Shown one piece after another: positions 3,719 to 16,086 of a stretch of 23,871 bases of DNA (positions within the stretch are counted from its first letter, which is position 1; every line of letters starts with the position of its first letter). This DNA comes from a virus, in IMG/VR virus record IMGVR_UViG_3300042305_001769, positions 1 to 23,871 of that record; one strand, written 5' to 3'. The notes below the pieces were generated by a model. The model did not search any database and had not been told where the DNA came from. It saw only the letters and a list, made by a program, of their open reading frames with translations. The position numbers and the translations under genes were made by a program.

Positions 3719-4965
3719 TATTTAGTGTAGCTTGTATTAGATTTTATTTTAGGTAAAACATTTTGTTCAATAGCTGTTACTTGACCATTTAATACTTTAG
3801 CGGCTATATTTATTGTAACTACATCTTTTGCTGTAAAAACAGCATTAGTAAATATTTTAATACTAGTAATTAATTGTTGAAGTAAATCTTGAGTTATATT
3901 ACCATATAATAAAGGCTCAGTAGCATCTTTATCTCCTAATAAAACTTTATCAGATTGAACAACAGTCAATGGTGTATCAATATTTACACTACTAATAGCA
4001 TTTAAATTAACTGATTTGTTGGAAGTCAATAAAATATGATCATTAGTAGAATTAAATACTAATCTTCCTGAATTTAAAATTATTTGTTTTCCAGCATATT
4101 GATCAGGTGCTGTAGGAGCAGATCCTGAATTATAACTTGTATATGATGTATTAGCAGCGGCTAGTGGAATTTTTTGGGTACTAGTAAGATAAATAGAAGA
4201 ATCATTATCATTAATATTTTCAATAACAGGTATCCACCCTTCTTCTCCTACTTGAGTTCCTTGACCATTTCTTAAAATGACAATAGGATCTCCACTTGAA
4301 CCTGTAGTAGACCAATTATTTAATCCTATAGGCTCATTTGTTTTAGTTTTAATAGTAGAGCCTAATCTAATTGAGTTACCCCATCTGCCTTCTGTTATAA
4401 TATCACCTTCAAAAGGTTTTAAGGGGTGAATATTAGAACGTTCAATAAATGTATTACCTAAATAAATTTCAGTTGATTGATCTGTTACTCGTCTAACATT
4501 TCCTAATTGAGTTTGTATATAATCTTTTTGTTGAGATTCAGGTAATATATTTGGGTTTGATGGAAAACCATTATGGTGAGGATGATTCCATAAAGAAACA
4601 ATATTGATATAATAACTAAATACATTCCCTGTTATTTCACCAATTCTAGTATCAGGAAATGATAGAATATAAACTATTTCATTAACTAAAGGTAAACTTT
4701 TATTATTACCTAATAAAGGTTTTGCTACAGGAGGAGTATTAGGAGTATTAGGATTAATTACATCTTCATATTCAATAATTCCTATAGCATTATATCCACC
4801 TAATTCTATAAATCGTGGATGAGTTTCATCTAAAACAATACTTAATACACGAACAGCATTTATATCTCCACTTTTATTTAAAGAACGAAATGATCCAAAA
4901 GATTTATTTGATTCATTTATTCTCTGATTTGCTGAGGATTGTCCATTAATTGTTTCAATAGTCAT
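3718..4965 (-). CDS. gp5: Baseplate central spike/hub, gp5-like without lysozyme
   Basis: 415 residues. The N-terminal part (about 35-160) resembles the gp5 OB-fold region, with R-V-L-S-I-V-L-D and, later, F-P-D-T-R-I-G-E-I-T-G-N. The C-terminal part (about 285-365) contains the strand-rich pattern seen in gp5/VgrG-type spikes of T4-like marine phages: L-V-F-N-S-T-N-D-H-I-L-L-T-S, then S-V-N-I-D-T, then V-L-L-G-D-K-D-A-T-E-P-L-L. T4 gp5 (575 residues) has a lysozyme domain in between; I see no T4-lysozyme-type catalytic segment here, so penetration would rely on the needle or on another enzyme. One-base overlaps join it to both neighbours. Confidence 0.78.
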   Translation of the reverse strand: MTIETINGQSSANQRINESNKSFGSFRSLNKSGDINAVRVLSIVLDETHPRFIELGGYNAIGIIEYEDVINPNTPNTPPVAKPLLGNNKSLPLVNEIVYILSFPDTRIGEITGNVFSYYINIVSLWNHPHHNGFPSNPNILPESQQKDYIQTQLGNVRRVTDQSTEIYLGNTFIERSNIHPLKPFEGDIITEGRWGNSIRLGSTIKTKTNEPIGLNNWSTTGSSGDPIVILRNGQGTQVGEEGWIPVIENINDNDSSIYLTSTQKIPLAAANTSYTSYNSGSAPTAPDQYAGKQIILNSGRLVFNSTNDHILLTSNKSVNLNAISSVNIDTPLTVVQSDKVLLGDKDATEPLLYGNITQDLLQQLITSIKIFTNAVFTAKDVVTINIAAKVLNGQVTAIEQNVLPKIKSNTSYTK

Positions 4966-5303
4966 TACTTTTCCCCCTGAGTTAATTCATTAACGGCAGC
5001 AAGTAATTGTTCTTTTTCTTCATCAGAAATGGTTAATGAACCATCAGTAGTAGTAGTTTGCATAGCGCGTTGAGCTAACGCTGCCATTTTTATTAGTAAA
5101 TCATCATTTTTAACACTTATTTCCATGTATTCTTTAATTAAGGGAACTACTAAAGTAGCATCACCTATTTCAGAAATAAGAGGTTTTAATTCATTTATAA
5201 GAGCAGTAACTTGTTGATCTTTTTTCTTTTGGTTATTGTAGATTTCTTCCAAAATATGAGAGAATTTTTTCTTACCAAAGACAATGTTATCAAATTGTGA
5301 CAT
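4965..5303 (-). CDS. Small helical late protein, unknown
   Basis: 112 residues, no recognised family. It is almost entirely helical by eye, with charged heptad-like stretches (H-I-L-E-E-I-Y-N-N-Q-K-K-K-D-Q-Q and D-E-E-K-E-Q-L-L-A-A-V-N-E-L). The start is supported by its being first in the baseplate block: a copy of the late motif (ATATTTATAA) lies 20 bases upstream and the preceding sigma-factor gene ends 34 bases away. Position suggests a tail assembly or chaperone-type protein, but this is inference from context only. Confidence 0.78.
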   Translation of the reverse strand: MSQFDNIVFGKKKFSHILEEIYNNQKKKDQQVTALINELKPLISEIGDATLVVPLIKEYMEISVKNDDLLIKMAALAQRAMQTTTTDGSLTISDEEKEQLLAAVNELTQGEK

Positions 5304-5321
5304 AAGACAATAGTTATTTTA

Positions 5322-5332
5322 TTATAAATATG
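5322..5332 (-). promoter_or_regulatory. Candidate late promoter motif
   Basis: Sense strand CATATTTATAA, about 20 bases before the start of the 112-residue gene that opens the baseplate block. It matches the AATATTTATAA element found before other late genes, has no TTG box 20 nt upstream, and lies in the only sizeable gap between 6045 and 4965. Confidence 0.45.
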
Positions 5333-5337
5333 AAAAC

Positions 5338-6045
5338 TTAAAATTTTATGTATCCTTGCTCAAGATAAAACGAGTATCCCTTTTTAAATATATCGTGAAG
5401 TTTATTTGTGATTTTTGTTATTTTAGGGGTTTTAGCATCTACTATTTCTCTAATATAAATGTAAAGTGCTTTTTTATTAAAAATATCTAAACTTTCTCTT
5501 TTTCTAAATAATTCTAAAACCGCATCTGCTATTTGAGCATCTTCCTCTTTAGGAAATAATTCAAAAATATTTTCAGTGCAGTGTTTAGTATATTCGTCTA
5601 TATAATAAGATAAACGTTCTATTGGTTGTGTATCTTCCATTTCATAAGAATGGTTTTCATCTTCATCTAATACATCTACATCAATAGTTTCAATTCTTTT
5701 CTTATAGTTTTTCTGGTTTGAAAGAATTAAATAACGTTTTGCAATTGTACCAAAATAAGAATATGCTTTAGCTCCTTTTTCTGGTTTGAATAAATGGATT
5801 TTACTTAATAAGAATGTGATTACCTCATGTTGTAAATCCTCGATATTATCTACTTCTGTATAATAAAATTTAAAAGTGTGGATAATATTTTCTGTTAATT
5901 TGAAGAAAGCGTAATGGATTTTTGAACGGTAGATTTCATTTTTTATTTCAAAATCATTACTACTGTTGTAAGCAATAATAGCATTTTCCGTTTCCTGGTT
6001 GAAGTATTGTACTCCTTTTTTCTTCTTTTTTACTACTTCTTCCAT
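5338..6045 (-). CDS. gp55: Late-transcription sigma factor, T4 gp55-like
   Basis: 235 residues (T4 gp55 is 185). The diagnostic part is around residues 60-110: Y-Y-T-E-V-D-N-I-E-D-L-Q-H-E-V-I-T-F-L-L-S-K-I-H-L-F-K-P-E-K-G followed by A-K-A-Y-S-Y-F-G-T-I-A-K-R-Y-L-I, which matches the sigma region-2-like core of gp55-type factors. The C-terminal part is helical and extended; T4 gp55 ends in a clamp-binding tail, and here the last residues are aromatic/hydrophobic (Y-S-F-Y-L-E-Q-G-Y-I-K-F), compatible with that role. It would direct host RNA polymerase to late promoters; candidate sites are the AATATTTATAA motifs in this window. It abuts the membrane-protein gene upstream with a one-base overlap. 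Confidence 0.82.
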   Translation of the reverse strand: MEEVVKKKKKGVQYFNQETENAIIAYNSSNDFEIKNEIYRSKIHYAFFKLTENIIHTFKFYYTEVDNIEDLQHEVITFLLSKIHLFKPEKGAKAYSYFGTIAKRYLILSNQKNYKKRIETIDVDVLDEDENHSYEMEDTQPIERLSYYIDEYTKHCTENIFELFPKEEDAQIADAVLELFRKRESLDIFNKKALYIYIREIVDAKTPKITKITNKLHDIFKKGYSFYLEQGYIKF

Positions 6046-6326
6046 TATTTAGTGATATTTTTAATGATAAAGGCATTTAATGCTGTTTGGATAATTTTAA
6101 TTTGTTCAAAGAAAAATCCTACTTCATCATCAGATTTAAAACTACCTTTAGCATCTACTTCCATCATTTTCTTTTCAGCCATTTCAATGGTGTCAGAAAT
6201 TTTGTTTAAATAAGACATATATCCTACTAGGATATCTTCTTGTTTTTCATTCTTTTTTAAGAGGTTAAAGGTCGTAAATCCAAGAGTCACGACCAGTATT
6301 AAAAGAATAATAATTGTTAATATCAT
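6045..6326 (-). CDS. Small membrane-anchored protein, unknown
   Basis: 93 residues. Residues 2-22 are a single hydrophobic segment (ILTIIILLILVVTLGFTTF), followed by K-K-N-E-K and a helical, acidic cytoplasmic-type domain with E-M-A-E-K-K-M-M-E-V-D and a C-terminal helix (F-F-F-E-Q-I-K-I-I-Q-T-A). Not recognised. Its start overlaps the end of the HD-domain gene by four bases, and its end overlaps the sigma gene by one, so HD, membrane protein and sigma factor are one translational unit. Confidence 0.75.
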   Translation of the reverse strand: MILTIIILLILVVTLGFTTFNLLKKNEKQEDILVGYMSYLNKISDTIEMAEKKMMEVDAKGSFKSDDEVGFFFEQIKIIQTALNAFIIKNITK

Positions 6327-7108
6327 AAATTGTCTAAAATGTTTTTTAAACCTTCACTTTTCATGCTGCTTAATGCTTTTTGTTTAGCAACACCAGGTGC
6401 AGGATTCTTTTTATTTGTATCCAATGTAAATGATTTCTTTGCGGGTTCCACGTTACCTTGGAGTTTTGGTAACCATTCTCTTTCAAACTCAATTCGAGCA
6501 GCCATTAAATCCGCTTGATGTACAATAAAAGGTAATGAGGTACGTGGTTTTTGTTCTGGAAGATAAGTCATTAGGTATTTCTTATTTGCTTCATCATATA
6601 AACCATCGTGAGTTTGAATTGCAACCATTTCATTAAAGGTATATTGAACACCATGAGACTGAAGTAAAAATAAACCTCTATCTGGAACGGATGCAAATGG
6701 GACTTTAGTATTAAACATATAATCCTCACCTAATTTTTCACGTCTCCAATTGTCAGTCTGAGGGATATAAGAATCATTTTCTTCATCTCCCATTTTACCT
6801 AAATCATGGTTTAAAGCAGAAAATATTAATTCTTCTTTAGTAAATGTAGTTAAATCGGCTCCCATATTACCCCATAATTCATAAAGATGAAGAGAGCAAA
6901 TAATTACTCTATTAACATGTTCAACATATCCTCCTGGGAATGCATTGTGGTATTCTTTCTTATGGGCAGCAGGCATCAACATAAGTCTATCCTGGTATTT
7001 GGTATAGAATTCTTTTAATTTTTCTTTACGTGGTTCAGAAATATGATCCTCAATAAAGCCCATAAGTCGAACCCAATTTTGTTGAATTTCTTTAGCTTCT
7101 AATTTCAT
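6323..7108 (-). CDS. HD-domain metal-dependent phosphohydrolase
   Basis: 261 residues. Metal-binding residues of the HD superfamily can be placed in order: His64 (G-G-Y-V-E-H-V), the His101-Asp102 doublet in L-N-H-D-L-G-K, His167-Asp168 in Q-T-H-D-G-L-Y, and a distal Asp200 in H-Q-A-D-L-M-A-A-R-I-E. The family hydrolyses phosphoester bonds of nucleotides; phage members may act on (d)NTPs or signalling nucleotides, but the substrate cannot be read from sequence. The C-terminal 40 residues are Lys/Ser/Pro-rich and probably flexible. It is upstream of, and coupled with, the sigma-factor gene. Confidence 0.8.
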   Translation of the reverse strand: MKLEAKEIQQNWVRLMGFIEDHISEPRKEKLKEFYTKYQDRLMLMPAAHKKEYHNAFPGGYVEHVNRVIICSLHLYELWGNMGADLTTFTKEELIFSALNHDLGKMGDEENDSYIPQTDNWRREKLGEDYMFNTKVPFASVPDRGLFLLQSHGVQYTFNEMVAIQTHDGLYDEANKKYLMTYLPEQKPRTSLPFIVHQADLMAARIEFEREWLPKLQGNVEPAKKSFTLDTNKKNPAPGVAKQKALSSMKSEGLKNILDNL

Positions 7109-7113
7109 AAGTA

Positions 7114-7311
7114 TTAAAATTGAGTATTAACTTCTCCTGGTGATAGTGGTTCTTGTTGAACGAATGATTTAGCATCATTTATATTGTCCCTCATTTCTTG
7201 GATCATCTCGTCAACCATTGTCCAATTTCCCTGTCTTAGGGCCAATTGTAGTTTCTCGATTCCTCCTTCTACTCGTTCCAATCTTCTCATTATTATCTCT
7301 CTATTTTTCAT
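7114..7311 (-). CDS. Small coiled-coil-like protein, unknown
   Basis: 65 residues starting MKNREIIMRRLERVEGG. A longer open frame continues upstream to 7404, but that extra part translates a promoter (7330-7362) and the end of the preceding gene, so I place the start at 7311; a second possible start is at 7290. The protein is a charged helix (R-L-E-R-V-E-G-G-I-E-K-L-Q-L-A-L-R-Q-G-N) followed by W-T-M-V-D-E-M-I-Q-E-M-R. No family recognised. It has its own early-type promoter, unlike the neighbouring late genes. Confidence 0.7.
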   Translation of the reverse strand: MKNREIIMRRLERVEGGIEKLQLALRQGNWTMVDEMIQEMRDNINDAKSFVQQEPLSPGEVNTQF

Positions 7312-7329
7312 AAAATATATTATTTGAGG

Positions 7330-7362
7330 AGAATATACGAAAAAGATCCTGAAAAACCAAAT
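7330..7362 (-). promoter_or_regulatory. Early-type Bacteroidota promoter
   Basis: Sense strand: TTTGG, 20 nt from TTG to TATATT, preceded by TTTTTCG and followed by C. It lies 20 bases upstream of the ATG at 7311 and overlaps the last codon of the upstream gene. It is the only copy of this promoter class found left of the tRNA cluster. Confidence 0.7.
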
Positions 7363-7775
7363 TAAAGCGAAATTGCTTTTATAATATTTAAGATCACAGA
7401 ACATTTTTCATATTCTTCAGTGTCCTGAAAATGTAATAAAAGTCTGTTTAAATTCCCAACTATAGTTTGGTTTGCTAAAGAATCCAATGTTTCTTTATGT
7501 AGTGGAATATTTAAATCCACTTTATTTATATAATACCAGGCCCTTTCAAAAGCAAAAAATTCACCTGCTTTTTCCAAGTCTTTAGGGTTTAGGGAAGGAT
7601 CTACTTCATTACAGAACATAATAAATTTCTTACTAAATACTTCATGATTAATCATTATTTTATTAAACATTACTATCCAGTAATAAGGATGTTCATACAA
7701 ATCTATGATTTCTATGTCCTTAGTCTTAGACTCAGATCCAAATAAACCAAAAATTTTGTTAACATTCATGTCCAT
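7362..7775 (-). CDS. Unknown phage protein
   Basis: 137 residues, not recognised. Mostly helical with aromatic-rich core segments (H-P-Y-Y-W-I-V-M-F-N-K-I-M and F-F-A-F-E-R-A-W-Y-Y-I-N-K-V) and a charged C-terminal helix (F-Q-D-T-E-E-Y-E-K-C-S-V). Two in-frame starts, MDM and M at residue 3, are possible; a degenerate late-like motif (ATATATTTAT) lies directly before the first. It is the first gene after the lysis-operon terminator. Confidence 0.72.
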   Translation of the reverse strand: MDMNVNKIFGLFGSESKTKDIEIIDLYEHPYYWIVMFNKIMINHEVFSKKFIMFCNEVDPSLNPKDLEKAGEFFAFERAWYYINKVDLNIPLHKETLDSLANQTIVGNLNRLLLHFQDTEEYEKCSVILNIIKAISL

Positions 7776-7919: not shown

Positions 7920-8531
7920 TTATTTTACGTATTCGTAGAATTTTAATGTTTTTTCTTTTCTGTCATCTAAACCATGAGTACCACCATTAATTCTTTTAGT
8001 CAAAGCTAAAATAGCAGCATCATTAATACCTTGATCACAGATTGACCATAATTTGTTTTTGTCAAAGAAGAACATAGCTGATTCAAAAGCATAAGTTGTA
8101 GCAACTAAATCTGGGTTATCCATAATTTCTGGCTTGTTCAAGTATTCAGAAAAGGCTTTATAATTAGCTTTACCTGTTAATTGAAGGGCACCTCTACCTC
8201 TATACTTCCAACCATCACCTGATGCTTCAGGGCCATTACCCATTCTATCAGCATAAACACGGTTTGCAATCTTTTCAGGTTGACGAGCATAAGATTCTTC
8301 TAAAGTACCTGGGAAATATTTTCCAAAGATACCTTGTAAACCTTGAGCTGAGTAATTTAAATTTTCTGAAAATGCTTTAAAACCACCGGTTTCATGGGCT
8401 GTTTGTGCAAAAAAGTGAGCAGCTCTAACTGGAGTTAATTTGTAAAACTCCATAGCTTTTTTCATAGTACCCGGGCCGAAAGCGCCATCAGCACCAACTC
8501 CGATTTTTTCTTGTAAACTCTTTAAACTCAT
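7920..8531 (-). CDS. Endolysin, glycoside hydrolase family 19
   Basis: 203 residues, single GH19 (chitinase-like lysozyme) domain. Signature elements: A-A-H-F-F-A-Q-T-A-H-E-T-G-G-F around residues 37-51, with Glu47 as the likely general acid, and W-K-Y-R-G-R-G-A-L-Q-L-T-G-K-A-N-Y around 108-124, the substrate-groove motif. The first 30 residues (S-L-Q-E-K-I-G-V-G-A-D-G-A-F-G-P-G-T) resemble a short peptidoglycan-binding repeat. No signal peptide, so release needs a holin; a holin candidate is directly upstream, 6 bases away. Phage GH19 enzymes cleave the peptidoglycan glycan chain. Confidence 0.9.
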   Translation of the reverse strand: MSLKSLQEKIGVGADGAFGPGTMKKAMEFYKLTPVRAAHFFAQTAHETGGFKAFSENLNYSAQGLQGIFGKYFPGTLEESYARQPEKIANRVYADRMGNGPEASGDGWKYRGRGALQLTGKANYKAFSEYLNKPEIMDNPDLVATTYAFESAMFFFDKNKLWSICDQGINDAAILALTKRINGGTHGLDDRKEKTLKFYEYVK

Positions 8532-8537
8532 ACCTTA

Positions 8538-8774
8538 TTATTTTTCAGTTGTTTCGTTTGATTGTTTTTTACTCCAAATTTTATCTACTGATGATAATCC
8601 TAAGCAACCAAAAGCTAATAGAGCTACTGATTCTACTAAAATGTTAGAAGGAGCAACATGAGCTTCTGAGAATGAATTGTGGTACATAGTAACACAAAGT
8701 GCTAATGTACATAATAGGCCACATAGTCTTTTCATAGAGACTTTGCCTGTTTCGTCAAAAAATAATTGTTTCAT
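8538..8774 (-). CDS. Holin candidate
   Basis: 78 residues with two hydrophobic segments: about residues 17-33 (LCGLLCTLALCVTMYH) and 46-63 (LVESVALLAFGCLGLSS), a short polar loop, and a charged C-terminus (K-K-Q-S-N-E-T-T-E-K). Size, two membrane spans, hydrophilic tail and position immediately before the endolysin fit a class II-like holin. An AATATTTATAA motif 24 bases upstream could give the lysis pair its own late start. The family match is by architecture, not by a recognised motif. Confidence 0.7.
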   Translation of the reverse strand: MKQLFFDETGKVSMKRLCGLLCTLALCVTMYHNSFSEAHVAPSNILVESVALLAFGCLGLSSVDKIWSKKQSNETTEK

Positions 8775-8798: not shown

Positions 8799-8809
8799 TT
8801 ATAAATATT
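8799..8809 (-). promoter_or_regulatory. Candidate late promoter motif
   Basis: Exact sense-strand AATATTTATAA, about 24 bases upstream of the holin-candidate start at 8774. It overlaps the stop codon of the preceding secreted-protein gene. It could give the lysis genes their own late transcript. Confidence 0.45.
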
Positions 8810-9254
8810 AAAATTGTTTTGAAGTTTCCTTTAAAGATTCTTGTAGCGCTTTTGAGAACGCTTTCTTATTTAAAGGAACCTCATTGTTTTCAACATCTAA
8901 AAACATAGCAAAAATGAAAGTTTTTCTTACACCTTTACCTTTATAATAACCAGAGGGTAAACGAACAGAAGTTTCTACTATATAGTCTTTTCTTAACCAT
9001 TTAGTACCCATTATGTTTAAAATTGTTTGTGGAGAGTAAATACTATCTATATTTACTTGGATTGTAAAACCTAAAGAATCATCTAAAAAATATCCTTTAT
9101 TTACTAAAATTTCTTCCATTTCTTCTTTAACACCAAATGTAACATCTCTGTTATCAATTTTTTGAATATGTTGTTTATTAACTGCTTGAACATTAACTTT
9201 TACAGATTCAGGACTTAAAAAAGATAAAAACGAAAATAGAATACTTAATATCAT
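8808..9254 (-). CDS. Secreted protein, unknown
   Basis: 148 residues. The N-terminus (MILSILFSFLSFLSPES) looks like a short signal peptide, though it lacks positive residues at the very start. The mature part is mixed alpha/beta with V-N-V-Q-A-V-N-K-Q-H-I-Q-K-I and G-F-T-I-Q-V-N-I-D-S-I-Y-S-P, then a charged C-terminal helix. Its layout (a conserved beta segment, then a variable helix) faintly recalls the CsgG-like protein encoded upstream, but I cannot assign a family. It sits between the surface-protein genes and the holin candidate, in the same operon. Confidence 0.7.
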   Translation of the reverse strand: MILSILFSFLSFLSPESVKVNVQAVNKQHIQKIDNRDVTFGVKEEMEEILVNKGYFLDDSLGFTIQVNIDSIYSPQTILNIMGTKWLRKDYIVETSVRLPSGYYKGKGVRKTFIFAMFLDVENNEVPLNKKAFSKALQESLKETSKQF

Positions 9255-9256
9255 AC

Positions 9257-9267
9257 TTATAAATATT
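9257..9267 (-). promoter_or_regulatory. Candidate late promoter motif
   Basis: Exact sense-strand AATATTTATAA between the end of the GEVED/dockerin gene (stop at 9266-9268) and the ATG at 9254, leaving 2 bases before the ATG. Same element as at 2829, 8799 and 15458. Confidence 0.4.
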
Positions 9268-10336
9268 AATTTCTATAACCTGTTCTTATTAAATAATAAT
9301 TTGAATTTCCTTTATTTGCTATACCACTTAAAGTAATAGTTTGCACTCCTGGGTGTGTAGATTTTAGGTTTGAATTAGAAGTATTTATAGTACCCCATTC
9401 AGTAGGAGTAAAAATTCTATAGTTAGGTATCCCTGATTTCCAGGAACGGCCTATCATTTTCATATAAATTAAATAAATATCTGTTACATTTAAATTACCA
9501 TTATTATTAACATCCATTCTATAATAATCTTTAGCGTTAAAAGATTGTTGTAAAACTTTTTGATTAAATGATTGAGCATCACTTACAACAGGGTTAGAAA
9601 TAGTTAAAGTATTTATTCTTAATTCAAAATCATAAACATTAGCATCTCTAGTAGAAGATAAACTAAATTTCCCATTTGCATCTGTTACAAAATTACCTAA
9701 TAAAGTATAAGTATTATCTGTTTTTAATTTACTATATAAATCAATAGGTACACTAGATATTCCTACTCCCTCAGAGTTGTAAATATATCCTGTGTAACTA
9801 AAAGGATCAGTAGCACCAGCAATTACTGTTTTAAAATCAAAAGTATTACCATAAGCATAACTACCACAAATTACAGGTGAACCTGAATATTGCATTATAA
9901 ATCTCATATAAACAGTTCCGTTATAAACAGTAGTAGGTACTGTAAAAGTAGCAGTAACTGTTTTAGTACCTAACCAAGAATAATTTGAACTATGAACCAA
10001 CTCTCCAGCATCTGTTAAAACACCATTACCATTAAAATCAATCCATAATTTAAAATATTCCATATAATTACCATTAGTTTGGGCAGTATAGGTAATAGAA
10101 ATATTTTGAGCTGCTGTAATAGTAGGAACGGCATTTGAAGTATAATCATAATAACCTGCAGGACTACCACCTGAAGTATTAGAATATCCTGTACTACCAT
10201 TATATGTTTTACCATTTATAGTTACACTAGAAACATATTCACAACAAAAATTTGTTGGGTTACTAGCACAAAGAGGAGATTGAGCATAAATTTTTACACT
10301 AAATAAAAACAATAATATAAATAATAGATATCTCAT
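9266..10336 (-). CDS. Exported GEVED/dockerin-like surface protein
   Basis: 356 residues. Signal peptide 1-19 (hydrophobic, ending Y-A-Q). Residues about 85-170 fit the GEVED domain of bacterial adhesins (Y-F-K-L-W-I-D-F-N-G-N-G-V-L-T-D-A-G-E-L-V, then F-T-V-P and V-Y-M-R-F-I-M-Q-Y). Residues about 180-245 resemble a carboxypeptidase-regulatory/CnaB-like beta domain. Residues about 250-300 contain a dockerin-like calcium loop, M-D-V-N-N-N-G-N-L-N-V-T-D. The last 180 residues are paralogous to residues 185-350 of the T9SS-sorted protein encoded at 13108-15000. No T9SS sorting domain is seen at its own C-terminus. Overlaps the barrel gene by four bases. Confidence 0.78.
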   Translation of the reverse strand: MRYLLFILLFLFSVKIYAQSPLCASNPTNFCCEYVSSVTINGKTYNGSTGYSNTSGGSPAGYYDYTSNAVPTITAAQNISITYTAQTNGNYMEYFKLWIDFNGNGVLTDAGELVHSSNYSWLGTKTVTATFTVPTTVYNGTVYMRFIMQYSGSPVICGSYAYGNTFDFKTVIAGATDPFSYTGYIYNSEGVGISSVPIDLYSKLKTDNTYTLLGNFVTDANGKFSLSSTRDANVYDFELRINTLTISNPVVSDAQSFNQKVLQQSFNAKDYYRMDVNNNGNLNVTDIYLIYMKMIGRSWKSGIPNYRIFTPTEWGTINTSNSNLKSTHPGVQTITLSGIANKGNSNYYLIRTGYRN

Positions 10337-11772
10337 AATATAAGTTTAGCTCCTAAAAGTATTTGATAATTAATTACATTTTGACTAGCTATGTAAGTAG
10401 TACCTCCTGTTAAACCAAGACCAAACGTTTTAGTAAATTTATAATTGAAATTAAAAAACGGTACGATAATTGGTTTGGATTTGAACCAGTCCGCTGTATA
10501 ATACTTTGTATACGGTGAGTATACACCAGCAGCAATTATTGTCGCATCTAAATTTTTTAATAATTTTCCCTTATACATAAAACCTGAAATGGCTAAAGTA
10601 GTAATAAGAGGTTCTTTAAATAATTTTCCGTATACACCTGCTCCACCATAAATAAGAGTTAACTTTTTTAAACTATTTACTCTAATGTACATTGAAACAT
10701 TAGAACTAGATCCAGGCATAGTAGAAAATCCGCTTGAAACTAAATTAATATGTTTATTGCCTTTTGAATTAGTTCCAATCCAAGATCTTAAAAAGGTTAC
10801 ATTACCAATTTTAGCATTAACCATATAATCAGCAGAGATACCAATTGAGGAAGTTCCGTCTCCTTTTACACGAGTATAAGACATTGTACCTCTAGCATCT
10901 TGAGAACCGTCTTCTGTTTTTTGAAGACCTACAATATCACCTGTAAGTAGGATTGCTGGTTTTTGAGTTTCGGTTTTAGCTTTAGAGGTTGTTTTAGAAA
11001 CATTATTTGATGTAGATTTTTGTTGATCTGTTTTTTGATCTTTAATTTCCTCATTTGTTGGTTGGTTATCTTTTTTAGTAGTACCTCCACCACCTCCACC
11101 TCCACTACCACCACTACTACCTCCACCACCACTATTAGAGCCATTTTTATTATCTACAGGCGGCTGAGACGTTGAATTTCCGTCTTGAGTTGGTTGATCA
11201 CTACCTGATGAGCTTCCTCCTGAATTTGGAGTAGTTCCTCCAGTTCCATTGTCAGTGGATGAGCTTCCTGAATTTGATCCCTCTCCAGATACTTTAGTTT
11301 TTGGATTATCTGTAGAATTCTTTGATTGATCGGTTTTTGAATTTCCATTTCCTTCGTTTTTGTTGTCTAAGTTGGAACCTCTATCAACATTAGTTGTTAA
11401 ATTAGTACCACTACTATTAAGTGAAGAAAAACTAGTTACTACGTTTAAGTTTAAGACTGTATTAACAATATTAGTTGTTAAGTTTGTTGTTGTTGTATTT
11501 GTTGTTGATACTAATATTCCCTGACAGGGTTTACTTGAGTACTGAGCATAAACAGTACTTATCCAGTTGTCAAAGGTTCCGTTTTGAATTTCGTTATAAG
11601 TGAATGCTTTTGTTTGTCCGTAATATGCTACTATAACAGGAGTAGACATATCATAAGTTATAAATTTTAAATTACGAGTACAAGGATCTGTATATGAATA
11701 CATGTAGGACTGTCCGTTTAAAGACAATCCTAATAGTAAAAATAAGAGTAATATTTTAGTTTTTAAATACAC
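10333..11772 (-). CDS. Outer-membrane barrel-like protein with long linker
   Basis: 479 residues in three parts. A signal peptide (1-21) is followed by a small extracytoplasmic domain (about 22-95) with two cysteines (31 and 83) that could form a disulfide. Residues about 96-272 are low complexity, rich in Ser, Thr, Asn, Gly, Lys and Asp, with a near-pure glycine run at 215-230. Residues about 273-479 alternate hydrophobic and polar residues in many short strands (I-I-V-P-F-F-N-F-N-Y-K-F, then F-G-L-G-L-T-G-G) and end I-L-L-G-A-K-L-I-L, as in outer-membrane beta-barrels. I infer a barrel or barrel-like domain; the exact family is not recognised. The glycine-coding triplet run (about 11083-11130) could vary in length by slippage. 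Confidence 0.7.
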   Translation of the reverse strand: MYLKTKILLLFLLLGLSLNGQSYMYSYTDPCTRNLKFITYDMSTPVIVAYYGQTKAFTYNEIQNGTFDNWISTVYAQYSSKPCQGILVSTTNTTTTNLTTNIVNTVLNLNVVTSFSSLNSSGTNLTTNVDRGSNLDNKNEGNGNSKTDQSKNSTDNPKTKVSGEGSNSGSSSTDNGTGGTTPNSGGSSSGSDQPTQDGNSTSQPPVDNKNGSNSGGGGSSGGSGGGGGGGTTKKDNQPTNEEIKDQKTDQQKSTSNNVSKTTSKAKTETQKPAILLTGDIVGLQKTEDGSQDARGTMSYTRVKGDGTSSIGISADYMVNAKIGNVTFLRSWIGTNSKGNKHINLVSSGFSTMPGSSSNVSMYIRVNSLKKLTLIYGGAGVYGKLFKEPLITTLAISGFMYKGKLLKNLDATIIAAGVYSPYTKYYTADWFKSKPIIVPFFNFNYKFTKTFGLGLTGGTTYIASQNVINYQILLGAKLIL

Positions 11773-12442
11773 CGGCTTTTATGAGGTTTTCAACAACCTT
11801 AGTAGTAGCGGTCTCTAATGATTTACGAGTTGCTTTACCTACGGTACTTTGAGAAAACTTCATGTCAATGTTTTTTAAGAAGGATTCACCTATTTTTTGT
11901 GATTCACCTTCTCCTGAGCCAATATAAATTTGGCCTGTTTTAGCGTCTACAAATCTTACTTGTAAACGTATAAATGTTGTTACAACTACTGTTGATTTGC
12001 CTTTTTCTACTGTTTCATCTTCATCAACAGCAAAATCCGCTACGGTAGCATAAACAAAGTATTGAGCTGCTTTAATTTTACCCTTACCATCAATTGGTTC
12101 TTCAAAAACACCTTTTTTAGATGCTTTAAATTGGGTTACCATTCTTTCTTTTATTTCTGATTTTTCTTCAGTAAATATAAAACGGTTTGTTTCATCTAAA
12201 TAATCTAACACTGATTCAGCAAATCCTAAACCTACATTTTTTTCTTGTAAACTAGGATATAAAGCAAATACTTTAGTTAAATCAACATTAACTACTTGAA
12301 CATTATATTTGATTGAATCTGTGTAATTAGATACAGTGAAAATGTCTTTCTTTTCAATAACATCTTTTTCAGTTGTGGTCTTCATAGAGCCACAACCGAA
12401 AAGTGTTAATAAAAATAAAAATGTAAAAATATTTTTTACCAT
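11756..12442 (-). CDS. CsgG-like outer-membrane lipoprotein
   Basis: 228 residues. A lipoprotein signal (F-L-L-T-L-F-G-C, Cys17) is followed by Gly-Ser, without the acidic surface-export residues seen in other lipoproteins here, which suits a periplasm-facing protein. The body has features of the CsgG family: A-A-Q-Y-F-V-Y-A-T-V-A-D-F, a beta segment V-V-V-T-T-F-I-R-L-Q-V-R-F-V-D-A-K-T-G-Q-I, and a C-terminal helix T-R-K-S-L-E-T-A-T-T-K-V-V-E-N-L. In curli systems CsgG oligomerises into an outer-membrane export channel. E. coli CsgG is 277 residues, so this is a compact version. Overlaps its neighbours by 17 and 7 bases. Confidence 0.72.
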   Translation of the reverse strand: MVKNIFTFLFLLTLFGCGSMKTTTEKDVIEKKDIFTVSNYTDSIKYNVQVVNVDLTKVFALYPSLQEKNVGLGFAESVLDYLDETNRFIFTEEKSEIKERMVTQFKASKKGVFEEPIDGKGKIKAAQYFVYATVADFAVDEDETVEKGKSTVVVTTFIRLQVRFVDAKTGQIYIGSGEGESQKIGESFLKNIDMKFSQSTVGKATRKSLETATTKVVENLIKAGVFKN

Positions 12443-12759
12443 GGGTCTTCTTCTTTAGCAGGTTCAGTTTTAGCTGGGGCTGCAGCTGGTTTTTCAACTA
12501 CTTTTTCTTTAATAATAGTTGTAGTACCACCTTCTTGTTTTGTTTGTTGTTTGTTTTCTTGGTTTTGTTGAACGTTAATCACAACAGGAGCAGGAGCAGC
12601 TGTTTGTTCTGTTTTAACTTCTTCTTTTGGCTCTTCATGTCCGCCAAATACTTGAACACCTAACCATGTTCCGCCACCTGCAATTAAAGTTGTTAAAGTA
12701 CCAATAACGGTCTTTTTCAAACCTGACCAAGTACCTTCGTTTGTTGTTTCTTCTGACAT
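12436..12759 (-). CDS. Membrane protein with Pro/Glu/Lys-rich tail
   Basis: 107 residues starting MSEETTNEGTWSGLKK. A longer frame extends to 12819, but the ATG at 12759 lies one base after the upstream stop and matches the coupling used throughout the operon. Residues about 14-36 form one hydrophobic, glycine-rich segment (V-I-G-T-L-T-T-L-I-A-G-G-G-T-W-L). The rest is a TonB-like flexible stretch with E-E-P-K-E-E-V-K, A-A-P-A-P-V-V-I, a Gln/Lys-rich middle and K-P-A-A-A-P-A-K-T-E-P-A-K-E-E, ending D-P-W. It could be periplasm-spanning (spanin- or TonB-like) or holin-like; no firm family. Confidence 0.65.
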   Translation of the reverse strand: MSEETTNEGTWSGLKKTVIGTLTTLIAGGGTWLGVQVFGGHEEPKEEVKTEQTAAPAPVVINVQQNQENKQQTKQEGGTTTIIKEKVVEKPAAAPAKTEPAKEEDPW

Positions 12760-12760
12760 A

Positions 12761-13108
12761 TTATTCGTTATTTGATATATTTGATGTATTTGATAATGTT
12801 GTTCCGTCTTCCTCGTCAACCTTTTGAACTAGCATTTTATCTCTGTCTTCTGAGTTGAACCAATAATCTACAACCTTATTTAAGTTACCTACGAAGGCAC
12901 CTAATAATATTAATAACATTTCCTTCCAAGATTCTTGAATAGCAATTCCAAAGAATACTGCTGAGTTAATTCCAAGAATAATAAAGAAGAATAAAAATAG
13001 CACAATTAAAGTAATCTTCCAGCGATTAACTTGCATTTGTTGTAACATGTAGTAGAAACGATTTTTATCTTCTACTTTAACATACTCTGATTTGAATAGA
13101 TTTTTCAT
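12761..13108 (-). CDS. Two-span membrane protein, holin-like
   Basis: 115 residues. The N-terminal 30 residues are charged, followed by a hydrophobic span at about 31-55 (ITLIVLFLFFFIILGI) and a second at about 64-77 (W-K-E-M-L-L-I-L-L-G-A-F-V-G), then N-L-N-K-V-V-D-Y-W-F-N-S-E-D-R-D-K and a polar Ser/Asn tail. The pattern of a G-x-F-x-G span followed by an aromatic-x-F-x-S plus charged tail resembles small phage holin-like proteins whose last helix ends Y-F-G-S-S. A second holin or antiholin, or part of the export machinery, are both possible. Confidence 0.6.
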   Translation of the reverse strand: MKNLFKSEYVKVEDKNRFYYMLQQMQVNRWKITLIVLFLFFFIILGINSAVFFGIAIQESWKEMLLILLGAFVGNLNKVVDYWFNSEDRDKMLVQKVDEEDGTTLSNTSNISNNE

Positions 13109-15000
13109 TATTTGTTTATTAAAATTTTGTTTGTAGCAAATTTACCATTGTTAACTAATGAAGCATAATAGAAACCGTTTTCTAATGATGCATTTACTGT
13201 GTATACATATTGGCCTTTAGGCATATTTTGATTTAAAACTTGAGCAACTTTTCTACCAAACATGTCAAAGATAGCTAATTCAGTTTCACCTTCTTCTAAT
13301 AAATTAAAAGCAATTCTCATAGTACCTGGATTTGGGTTAGGAGTAGCCAATAAACAGAATTCAGTTGATTTAACTGTTGGTTTATAAAACACTCTATCTA
13401 CTTGAACAATACCCATTGTAGGAGTAATATTCATGTCTTTAGATACGTTATCACCCACGTATTTAGCGCCAGTCCATAATGCTGCTGTACCCCATTGATC
13501 TTGAGGTTTTTTAGCTATAAATTGTAAAGTAAATACTTGTTCGCCATCGTTAAATAAGCTAGAATTTGAAATATCAAATCCACCCCAAGAAATAACATTG
13601 TTAGTAGGATTCACAAATGAAATCCATTTCATTGCTTTTTCAGTATTTTCTATTTTTTTAAATTCAAGTAAAGAGGTATCGTATTTAATATCTAATTGTA
13701 AAGCACCTAATGATTTACCTTTAGTCAAAACTTTAACTGGTACATTAACTAAATTACCTTCTTCAACTTTAACTTTAGGTAAGTTAATTTCAATTGTTTC
13801 AACTATATTATCATATTGAACTGTATTGTCAATTATATATTTGTTAGCATTAGATGGGTTATTGATTTTAATTGGGATTAAACGAGCCATTTTAAAACCA
13901 GTTACGTTAGCATCACCTTTTACAGAAACGTATCTTAAAATTGAATCAGCACCTCCATTAATATAATGAGTGAAATTAGTTACACCTGAAATAGTTGAAG
14001 TATAGTTTGTATTAGATCCATTAATAGTAGCATATTCAGAAGGAGTAAAGAATAAAACATCTTTAACACCATTTACCCATGAAGTAAATCTACCACCAAT
14101 TCTACCAAATACACCATAAGCGTCAGCAATTGTAATATTATTACTACCGTTTACATCCATTGTGTAATAATCAAATCCTGTTGGGCTGTATTGTCCTAAA
14201 ACAGTTTGGTTAATCTTTTGAGCATCAGCAGTTGAAATTACATTACCAACAGTCATTGTATCACCTTTAACTGCAATACGAGTATCCCAATATGTTGTAT
14301 CTAATATTTCTTCAAAATTAAATTTACCACTATTATCAGTAACATATGATTTTACTTGAACCCAAGTAGAACCTGTTTTTTCTTTCTTTTCTAAAGATAA
14401 AACTAAGTTTTTAGCACCTGTACCAGCTGTAGTTAAGAAAGTACCTTTGAATTTTAATTTTTGTTGGATGAATTTACCACCATAAGAGTAAACAGTTAAT
14501 GTAGTATCGTTACCATAGTTAGTAGCAGCTAAATTATTAAATGTAGTTGTACCTGTAATTTTCATGGTTTTGATACTATCTAAAGCATTCCAAGTAGCGG
14601 CTGAAGCGTGTGTTAAAGTAATTTCAACAGCAGCACCATCCGAATATGAGAAAGTTGAGTTAGTGCCTGTATAGACCATAGTAACTGTAATATTGCCTTC
14701 GGTAGTATTAGTTACATATTGCATATACTGATCTGTAGAACTATATTTTAAAGCAACAGTAGGAGCAGCACCATTGAAAGCGTCTTTATCGTACCATACA
14801 CGAAATTGCATACCTGTGATTTTAGCACTAGTATTATTTCTGTAGTAAAGATTTGCTTTAGTAACACCAATGTTTGAAGGAGCTACTGTGTAGTTTGTGT
14901 CTACGATTACCCATCTTCCTGTACCAGGAGCTGGTGGGGTTGTTTGACCAAAAGTAATAGTTGCAAGTAAGAATGCAAGAATTAAGAATAGTTGTTTCAT
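13108..15000 (-). CDS. T9SS-sorted cohesin/dockerin-like surface protein
   Basis: 630 residues. Signal peptide 1-19 (ends T-F-G-Q). Residues about 30-170: beta-sandwich resembling cohesin. About 185-250: regulatory-like beta domain. About 253-303: dockerin-like region with N-V-I-S-T-A-D-A-Q-K-I-N-Q-T-V-L-G and the calcium loop M-D-V-N-G-S-N-N-I-T-I-A-D. About 400-535: cohesin-like domain (V-N-V-P-V-K-V, then L-G-A-L-Q-L-D-I-K-Y-D-T-S-L-L-E-F). About 553-630: a type A T9SS C-terminal sorting domain with P-N-P-N-P-G-T, L-A-I-F-D-M-F-G-R-K-V, G-F-Y-Y-A-S-L and a final K-I-L-I-N-K. Such domains direct cargo across the Bacteroidota outer membrane and are removed on attachment. It is the second gene of the operon and overlaps the first by four bases. 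Confidence 0.85.
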   Translation of the reverse strand: MKQLFLILAFLLATITFGQTTPPAPGTGRWVIVDTNYTVAPSNIGVTKANLYYRNNTSAKITGMQFRVWYDKDAFNGAAPTVALKYSSTDQYMQYVTNTTEGNITVTMVYTGTNSTFSYSDGAAVEITLTHASAATWNALDSIKTMKITGTTTFNNLAATNYGNDTTLTVYSYGGKFIQQKLKFKGTFLTTAGTGAKNLVLSLEKKEKTGSTWVQVKSYVTDNSGKFNFEEILDTTYWDTRIAVKGDTMTVGNVISTADAQKINQTVLGQYSPTGFDYYTMDVNGSNNITIADAYGVFGRIGGRFTSWVNGVKDVLFFTPSEYATINGSNTNYTSTISGVTNFTHYINGGADSILRYVSVKGDANVTGFKMARLIPIKINNPSNANKYIIDNTVQYDNIVETIEINLPKVKVEEGNLVNVPVKVLTKGKSLGALQLDIKYDTSLLEFKKIENTEKAMKWISFVNPTNNVISWGGFDISNSSLFNDGEQVFTLQFIAKKPQDQWGTAALWTGAKYVGDNVSKDMNITPTMGIVQVDRVFYKPTVKSTEFCLLATPNPNPGTMRIAFNLLEEGETELAIFDMFGRKVAQVLNQNMPKGQYVYTVNASLENGFYYASLVNNGKFATNKILINK

Positions 15001-15452
15001 TTTGAGTTGTTTATTATTTGTTGTTTAGTATGTTGTATTAGCCAATCTTCCACATTAGATAACTTGTTGATTAACCCTAATTCATAATAATAACAAAAAT
15101 ATTCTTCTTGATTCGGTGTGAGGATAATTTCCCTTTTTCTAAGGTAAAGGTGAAAACTTTCGTGTACTAGTACTGCTGCTAAATTATTAATTGAATTTAA
15201 TTTAACATCTTTAACTGCCACGTATATTACACCTGTACTATCCGTTAACTCACAAGAAGAAAACTCGCTTACCCAAAAACTTATTGAACTACAAACACTA
15301 TCAAGTAACTGGTACTTAGGTAGATCTGTTTGCTTAATTAATTGTATTGCTGAATCTATTTTTAAATCCCATCCATCTCCTGCTTTATCTATTTTAATTT
15401 GACTAAAAAGTGATAAAGGGTAGATAATTAGAAACAAACAGACTAACCGCAT
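14997..15452 (-). CDS. Exported HExxH metallopeptidase-like protein
   Basis: 151 residues. Signal peptide 1-18 (C-L-F-L-I-I-Y-P-L-S-L-F-S-Q). The mature protein carries a zincin motif H-E-S-F-H at residues 97-101, in a helix context L-A-A-V-L-V-H-E-S-F-H-L-Y-L, with glutamates at 116, 117 and 124 as possible third ligands. Two cysteines (54 and 67) could pair in the periplasm. The zincin fold is supported only by the motif and helix; the family is not recognised, and a non-catalytic role is possible. First gene of the exported-protein operon, 5 bases after a candidate late promoter. Confidence 0.68.
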   Translation of the reverse strand: MRLVCLFLIIYPLSLFSQIKIDKAGDGWDLKIDSAIQLIKQTDLPKYQLLDSVCSSISFWVSEFSSCELTDSTGVIYVAVKDVKLNSINNLAAVLVHESFHLYLRKREIILTPNQEEYFCYYYELGLINKLSNVEDWLIQHTKQQIINNSK

Positions 15453-15468: not shown

Positions 15469-15493
15469 GCAAAAAGAAAAAGAATGCTTTTAG

Positions 15494-15564
15494 TTACCCC
15501 CCAAGGATTCGAACCTCGATTCAGTGGACCAAAACCACTTGTCCTGCCTTTAGACGAGAGGGCA
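15494..15564 (-). tRNA. tRNA-Gln (UUG)
   Basis: Cloverleaf found by hand: acceptor TGCCCTC pairs with GGGGGTA (one G-T, one T-G), anticodon arm AGTGG-TTTTGGT-CCACT with anticodon TTG, T arm CGAGG-TTCGAAT-CCTTG, discriminator A. No 3' CCA in the DNA. Decodes CAA. Confidence 0.93.
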
Positions 15565-15571
15565 ATTTATG

Positions 15572-15643
15572 TAGCCCCTACGGGAATCGAACCCGTCTTT
15601 CTAGGATGAAAACCTAACGTCCTAACCGATAGACGAAAGGGCC
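15572..15643 (-). tRNA. tRNA-Glu (UUC)
   Basis: Acceptor GGCCCTT pairs with AGGGGCT, anticodon arm TTAGG-TTTTCAT-CCTAG with anticodon TTC, T arm ACGGG-TTCGATT-CCCGT, discriminator A, no encoded CCA. Decodes GAA. Seven bases separate it from tRNA-Gln. Confidence 0.93.
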
Positions 15644-15647
15644 ATTT

Positions 15648-15735
15648 TGGCGGAAAGTCAGGGATTCGAACCCCGGTTAGCTTTCACTAAAACAGTTTTC
15701 AAGACTGCCGCATTCAACCGCTCTGCCAACTTTCC
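15648..15735 (-). tRNA. tRNA-Ser (UGA)
   Basis: Class II tRNA: acceptor GGAAAGT pairs with ACTTTCC, anticodon arm GCAGT-CTTGAAA-ACTGT with anticodon TGA, long variable arm (TTAG...CTAA), T arm with GGTTCGAATCC, discriminator G. Unlike the other four, CCA directly follows the discriminator in the DNA. Decodes UCA. Confidence 0.93.
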
Positions 15736-15741
15736 GTTTTT

Positions 15742-15813
15742 GCTTCTCCGTTCACTCCGCTCTGTGAGACTACAGTGACTGGTTGTTTATACTAATAGAT
15801 CTACCAGAGAAGC
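15742..15813. ncRNA. Structured tRNA-sized element between tRNAs
   Basis: A 72-base segment with a perfect 7-bp closing stem (GCTTCTC / GAGAAGC) and two internal arms readable by eye: TGGT...ACCA and GTCACT...AGTGAAC with one bulge. Size and closing stem equal those of a tRNA, yet neither strand has a T-loop consensus or a good anticodon arm. It could be a degenerate tRNA, a small structured RNA or a processing element. An alternative pairing, AATAGAT with ATCTATT, involves the flank up to about 15830. Confidence 0.35.
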
Positions 15814-15838
15814 TTGCCTCAATCTATTAATATCCGGG

Positions 15839-15911
15839 AGCCACCTGTAGGACTTGAACCCACAACCTACTGAGTACAAATCAGTAGCTCTACCAATTGA
15901 GCTAAGGTGGC
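15839..15911 (-). tRNA. tRNA-Thr (UGU)
   Basis: Acceptor GCCACCT pairs with AGGTGGC, D arm with AGCTCAATTGGTAGAGC, anticodon arm ACTGA-TTTGTAC-TCAGT with anticodon TGT, T arm TGTGG-GTTCAAGT-CCTACA, discriminator T, no encoded CCA. Decodes ACA. Confidence 0.93.
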
Positions 15912-15913
15912 TT

Positions 15914-15970
15914 AAACTTTCTTGCTAAACTCCGAGCTTACGTTCTCGAAGAACCTGGGAAAGGTAGTTT
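15914..15970. other. Second structured tRNA spacer
   Basis: Spacer between tRNA-Thr and tRNA-Leu with an inner inverted repeat GTTCT-CGA-AGAAC (15942-15954) and weak outer pairing (AAACT with AGTTT, CTTTC with GAAAG). No gene or tRNA is recognised in it. Confidence 0.3.
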
Positions 15971-16000
15971 TTATTTTTAATGTCTTTAAGAACTTATTTG

Positions 16001-16086
16001 TACTATTGGCCGGAATCGAACCGGCATGATCGTTTAGGATCATTGGATTTTAAGTCCAACGCGTCTACCTGTTCCGCCACAATAGC
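16001..16086 (-). tRNA. tRNA-Leu (UAA)
   Basis: Class II tRNA, 86 bases: acceptor GCTATTG pairs with CAATAGT (G-T at the end), anticodon arm TTGGA-CTTAAAA-TCCAA with anticodon TAA, long variable arm TGATCCTAAACGATCAT, T arm GCCGG-TTCGATT-CCGGC, discriminator A, no encoded CCA. Decodes UUA. Confidence 0.93.

Follow-up and report, generated by a model that had tools for sequence, protein, structure and literature searches.

The locus described here raises two questions: does a phage protein really carry the sorting domain of its host's type IX secretion system (T9SS), and, if so, what would the phage gain from it? The locus lies in a stretch of 23,871 nucleotides, called the window in the following (IMG/VR virus record IMGVR_UViG_3300042305_001769), and the gene in question, defined by its open reading frame and by profile matches, occupies 13108-15000 on the minus strand and codes for an exported cohesin protein of 630 residues. 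All other features of the locus given below with coordinates of the window as genes of the cassette, or as adjoining it, are also on the minus strand. The reading proposed here, to which we give a probability of about 0.62 from sequence comparison, is that the protein would be a T9SS-exported cohesin scaffold displaying a swappable binding module on the infected cell.

An earlier note on this DNA had claimed a T9SS type A sorting domain at 13108-13340, at the end of a 630-residue protein with a signal peptide at its other end. The span was right to about one codon, residues 553-630 corresponding to 13111-13344, and the motifs which the note quoted (PNPNPGT, IFDMFGRKV, GFYYASL and KILINK before the stop codon) are all present. 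The profile search that it proposed gave matches over the cut-off with both PF18962 (residues 554-628, 33.4 bits against a cut-off of 27, E 5.6e-8) and TIGR04183 (residues 554-629, 35 bits against 23, E 1e-8). This is the only sorting-domain match in a six-frame scan of the window, and none of 14 control genomes came over the cut-off; TIGR04131, which describes type B cargo, had no match in 10 phage records nor in any control. PF18962 was found in all 16 aligned members of the cohesin-protein family. In 81 of 82 full-length sequences a lysine is located 5-9 residues from the C-terminus, a residue which hardly varies among type A domains (PMC10994853). The structure prediction that had also been suggested was made with AlphaFold2, and the full-length model is of low confidence (overall pLDDT poor, 47.8); within it the domain shows seven strands at 551-628, the pLDDT of this block being mostly 66-81, and residues 546-630 of the same low-confidence model superimpose on Ig-like domains with Z 9.3-9.6 (rmsd 2.3-2.4, 81-83 residues, VIA-align). 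The profile of the cohesin family matches 8glk_D (E 0.0019), a substrate sorting domain solved in the T9SS translocon (structures in PMC10994853). The RgpB sorting domain is not among the 50 VIA-align matches listed; it appears in the Foldseek list (5ag8, E 2.8e-4), but over 245 columns at TM 0.35, and this match was not relied on. The type A cargo layout read by the earlier note thus stands: two curated profiles match, the lysine near the C-terminus hardly varies, seven strands are predicted and all relatives keep the domain. Judged by its sequence, the C-terminal domain is a real type A T9SS sorting domain. A chance C-terminal resemblance to a sorting domain is ruled out by the conservation.

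The signal peptide is of the Bacteroidota type, a Sec signal peptide of residues 1-19 (14944-15000) with a predicted cut after FGQ; judged by eye it reads MKQLFLILAFLLATITFGQ, with TT following the cut. Called by a simple sequence criterion, a hydrophobic core followed by an [AGS](x)Q cleavage end, it is present in all 82 full-length aligned sequences, that of the window included. The mature protein begins with a cohesin-like beta-sandwich (residues 20-172, 14485-14943), which was seen as a second Cohesin stretch at a permissive threshold and has strands in the model. It is followed by a transthyretin/CNA-B-like plus dockerin-like segment (residues 176-370, 13891-14475), in which a transthyretin-like protein profile matches residues 176-250 and the dockerin-like part holds a single F-hand loop, DVNGSNNITIAD (by eye); the segment is shared with the relatives' counterparts of the protein encoded at 9266-10336 (best E 3e-22). 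The Cohesin domain PF00963 covers residues 403-533 (13402-13794) with 49.1 bits against a cut-off of 24.1 (E 8.6e-13) and is matched in 16 of 16 aligned members. The cohesin fold is seen in the predicted model as well, where residues 399-536 superimpose on solved cohesins with Z up to 12.3 (121 residues, rmsd 2.5, VIA-align).

That the protein belongs to a phage, as the earlier note took for granted, is borne out by the baseplate wedge and GH19 endolysin genes in the window and by the classification of the record as viral. A first scan found relatives of the cohesin protein at 79 viral loci, 70 of them full-length. All 58 distinct viral records, window included, have exactly one PF18962 domain, a count of one per record and not strictly per genome, as many of the records are fragments, with several above 150 kb and up to 197 kb. 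The records were scanned in three batches (30 of 30, 17 of 17 and 12 of 12 with exactly one domain), from which a duplicate Immutovirus record and a metagenome-assembled genome (MAG) were subtracted and to which the window was added. The single sorting domain is kept although the bodies of the proteins range from 74% to only 28% identity. It is the fastest mature domain of the protein, with a mean identity of 42% versus 58-71% elsewhere, and selection on it is purifying (median dN/dS 0.18). In Flavobacterium johnsoniae recognition of the sorting domain depends on its size and shape more than on its sequence (PMC10994853), and the fast sequence change would be explained if the shape, not the sequence, is what is read.

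The earlier note had further suggested a comparison with host cargo proteins for recent transfer. This gave no sign of such a transfer; the gene is an old one, conserved among phages. When a genome collection with one genome per species was scanned, a single relative was found, on the 16.5-kb contig RFPL01000028.1 of a Sphingomonadaceae MAG. The contig carries the phage cassette order, no other sorting domain is present in the whole MAG, and most likely it is a mis-binned phage contig. A recent transfer from a host cargo gene is therefore rejected, the only bacterial relative in that scan being this phage-like contig.

The cohesin gene is part of a cassette in which most proteins carry signal peptides or membrane segments. 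Its start overlaps by 4 bases with the gene for an exported HExxH protein, metallopeptidase-like, at 14997-15452, in which H97, E98, H101, E116, E117 and E124 are invariant over 14 sequences; a weak SprT-like match was obtained in 3 of the 14, and from its sequence the protein resembles a secreted metallopeptidase. On the other side follow a small protein with two putative transmembrane segments (12761-13108, in 27 of 31 long loci); an inner-membrane protein with one putative transmembrane segment and a Pro/Gln-rich tail (12436-12759, in 31 of 31), the start of which was taken at MSEE, where the relatives begin; a CsgG-like outer-membrane lipoprotein with the lipobox GCGSM (11756-12442), the best conserved gene of the cassette with 84% median identity; an exported protein which in the alignment consists of an N-terminal domain, a Gly/Ser-rich linker and a putative C-terminal outer-membrane beta-barrel (10333-11772), and for which no convincing Pfam family was found; an exported adhesin-like protein with signal peptide, swappable module and dockerin-like C-terminus (9266-10336, GEVED E 1.2e-13); and a small exported protein (8808-9254, in 31 of 31). 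The cassette is adjoined by a holin-like protein with two transmembrane segments (8538-8774, homologs in 30 of 31 long loci, position variable) and, downstream, by a GH19-type endolysin (7920-8531, PF00182 E 3.6e-9, phrog_181 E 4e-64). An HD-type phosphohydrolase-like gene (6323-7108, phrog_5889 and phrog_28876) adjoins the endolysin and baseplate genes.

Of these genes, those at 8808, 9266, 10333, 11756, 12436 and 13108 are kept in all 31 loci above 20 kb in length, and those at 12761 and 14997 in 27-28 of them; it should be noted that matches to 9266 and 13108 can cross through their common module, and that the order of the genes was read off in ten loci. Much the same gene set is present in more distant loci. 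Overlaps of the ATGA type (15000/14997, 13108/13108, 12442/12436, 11772/11756 and 10336/10333) suggest that the cassette is one operon. The flavobacterial promoter pattern was uninformative (3 matches versus 2.4 expected). Just upstream of the cassette lies a cluster of five tRNA genes (Gln, Glu, Ser, Thr and Leu) at 15493-16086.

The CsgG homology of the lipoprotein is suggestive only. PF03783 gives 15.1 bits, below the cut-off of 20.8, and came over the cut-off in none of 17 phage records. CsgG takes the top eight places in Foldseek (E 2e-3 to 5e-3) and rank 21 in VIA-align (Z 6.6), in both cases with a low-confidence model; hhalign to CsgG gives a probability of 22, and a search of the PDB sequences with the profile of the lipoprotein had no match to E 10. 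The lipobox Cys17 is invariant in an alignment of 19 sequences and absent in Immutovirus. Relatives of this gene are found in at least 573 viral stretches.

The protein at 9266-10336 is of particular relevance to what the scaffold might carry. In this family the two ends are kept and the middle module differs: in 125 loci the module is of the C-type lectin type in 51, of an unnamed 400-aa type in 35, GEVED in 19, PA14 in 17 and other in 3, the types being assigned by sequence motifs with a Pfam check on 16 members. The window has the GEVED type. The module type differs in 71 of 217 locus pairs with CsgG-like genes at least 95% identical, in some more than 99%, the counts not being independent as some of the pairs are overlapping contigs of one phage; differing module types cannot stem from such overlaps. 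This exchange is the pattern which a recognition module under strong diversifying pressure would be expected to show. A type I dockerin is defined by a duplicated F-hand calcium motif. Dockerin_1 (PF00404) gives 13.1 bits on the window's protein, below the cut-off of 22.9, and weak matches at E<0.01 in 2 of 16 members of the family. The adhesin itself is without a T9SS tag, and its export would be explained only if the scaffold, the CsgG-like protein or the barrel carries it along.

The same cassette is found in a cultured phage, Flavobacterium phage vB_FspM_immuto (Immutovirus), the host of which is Flavobacterium sp. LMO8. In the window the cohesin gene is one gene, whereas in Immutovirus it is two. 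In immuto_2-6A the first, 11598-12689, has a signal peptide and the cohesin-like and dockerin-like parts without the tag; the second, 12691-13422, has a signal peptide, the cohesin corresponding to the second one of the fused protein, and the tag. Signal peptides on both halves and the tag on one fit two parts meeting outside the cell, and that they cooperate is suggested by the fused form elsewhere. If they do, the untagged half would be held by the tagged one or exit otherwise. The Immutovirus record annotates 'cohesin' and 'lectin C-type', without a T9SS domain.

A type A cargo is expected to need SprA/PorV for its secretion and to lose the domain on export. A type A domain suffices for T9SS export via PorV, followed by release or by linkage to the surface (PMC12618676, PMC10994853). 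The scaffold reading proposes that the cohesin protein crosses the inner membrane by Sec, that its C-terminal domain would be taken up by the host SprA-PorV translocon, and that the cohesin-bearing body would end outside the infected cell, probably on its surface. From the biology of the T9SS it is very probable that the host system transports the protein. Retention on the surface is the outcome we would lean towards, and release into the medium is also possible because type A cargo can be released. SprA had no match in the tested phage records nor in any control, and a T9SS-competent host, which the earlier note had assumed, is supported indirectly because the host of the only cultured relatives is Flavobacterium sp. 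LMO8. On the scaffold, the dockerin-like end of the 9266-10336 protein would dock on the cohesin; the weak dockerin matches leave the chances of such a pairing about even. The infected cell, when coated in this way, would gain a new surface chosen by the phage, with a swappable lectin, PA14 or GEVED module. The most likely benefit would be that competing phages are kept off (superinfection exclusion), followed by adhesion or aggregation of infected cells. In favour of exclusion, the exchange of the module resembles an arms race and the same proposal was made for the Cryophage cargo (PMC7468147); as the purpose of the cassette, exclusion can be put forward only tentatively. A more far-reaching and rather doubtful possibility is that an envelope apparatus of the CsgG-like lipoprotein, the inner-membrane Pro-rich protein, the barrel and the HExxH protein together with the host T9SS builds, on infected Bacteroidota cells, a structure that is scaffolded by cohesin and bears an exchangeable lectin tip. 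If true, this would be a virus-made counterpart of a tail fibre, sitting on the host and deciding who else binds.

The cassette could instead serve 'sibling capture': infected cells would adhere to one another, to uninfected kin or to particles, and progeny would thereby find hosts. This has been published for phage CsgGF operons, the pelagimyophage curli genes (PMC7029224), and adhesin modules (C-type lectin, PA14 and GEVED) as well as a CsgG-like lipoprotein are present here; but the cassette has no curlin that we could find, Melnitz shows no clumping although it has CsgGF (PMC9004378), and the rapid exchange of modules is at least as compatible with an arms race. We consider it unlikely, yet less so than a role in lysis and progeny release, in which the envelope proteins would loosen the outer membrane and surface layer late in infection. 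In the window the cassette does run into the holin-like gene and the GH19 endolysin, an exported HExxH protein is among its products, and such a role was proposed for the CsgGF of Melnitz (PMC9004378). In Immutovirus, however, about 6 kb with tRNAs and many other genes separates the cassette from the annotated endo-beta-N-acetylglucosaminidase, and lysis needs no cohesin, lectin or T9SS tag, which makes this second possibility quite unlikely.

Two further explanations concern the cohesin protein itself. Phage virions often carry Ig-like domains, and in VIA-align the Ig-like domains of GH2 enzymes come close to residues 546-630; the proteins might then be virion-associated adhesins with a C-terminal domain that has an Ig-like fold and only resembles a sorting domain. 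The signal peptide, present in 82 of 82 sequences, would however export the protein before virion assembly, and the matches are to specific sorting-domain families; we hold this explanation to be improbable. The host-type domains could also suggest that the phage acquired a host cargo gene by accident and has no use for it. But all relatives examined carry the gene as a single copy in synteny, selection on it is purifying, and no bacterial source came up in the scan of the genome collection. The conservation of the family refutes this explanation, and its probability is close to nil.

Phage cargo of the T9SS as such has already been reported (PMC7468147, PMC6949934). In Cryophage (Bellas et al. 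2020, PMC7468147) phage genes have type A sorting domains as in the window, and the authors propose a hijack of the host T9SS and superinfection exclusion; the cargo is hypervariable and one is a PA14 protein. Cryophage has three variable cargo genes (endoglucanase, GH39 and PA14), whereas here there is one conserved cohesin cargo per record and the variable binding module is on a separate, untagged protein within a conserved cassette. The crAss-like phages of Bacteroidota, too, have proteins with sorting domains, which lie close to BACON ORFs (de Jonge et al. 2019, PMC6949934); these are gut phages with BACON repeats, and the accessible part of that report does not describe a cohesin scaffold or the cassette. 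The CsgGF ('curli') operon of pelagimyophages and Melnitz is like the cassette in having exported proteins and a CsgG-family lipoprotein absent from the host (PMC7029224, PMC9004378). The operon has clear CsgG (39.7% and 36.8% identity to E. coli CsgG), CsgF and curlin-like genes, whereas the cassette has CsgG similarity below the cut-off and a T9SS cargo, and no CsgF or curlin was noticed in it. The CsgF-CsgG-curlin operon of a pelagiphage (4509-7613 of its record) resembles the cassette in kind, with exported proteins around CsgG. In F. johnsoniae a type A sorting domain takes the adhesive proteins RemA and RemZ to the cell surface (PMC12618676, PMC10994853); those are bacterial gliding-related proteins, while the phage protein is a cohesin scaffold. 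With cellulosome scaffoldins the phage protein has the cohesin fold in common (Z 12.3 to a cohesin-like module), but the phage cassette is without enzymes or confirmed dockerins and has the T9SS tag.

In the literature outside subscription papers we found no description of the conserved cohesin cargo, the cassette or the module swapping. Until now, phage T9SS cargo was known from isolated or variable genes. In the widespread phage group described here every record has one tag as a fixed trait, and the tag is tied to a cassette which exchanges its binding module between near-identical phages. Immutovirus and Flavobacterium sp. LMO8 are a cultured phage-host pair which makes the reading testable. 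The finding points to a general phage strategy, in which the outer surface of Bacteroidota would be remodelled by hijacking the secretion system of the host.
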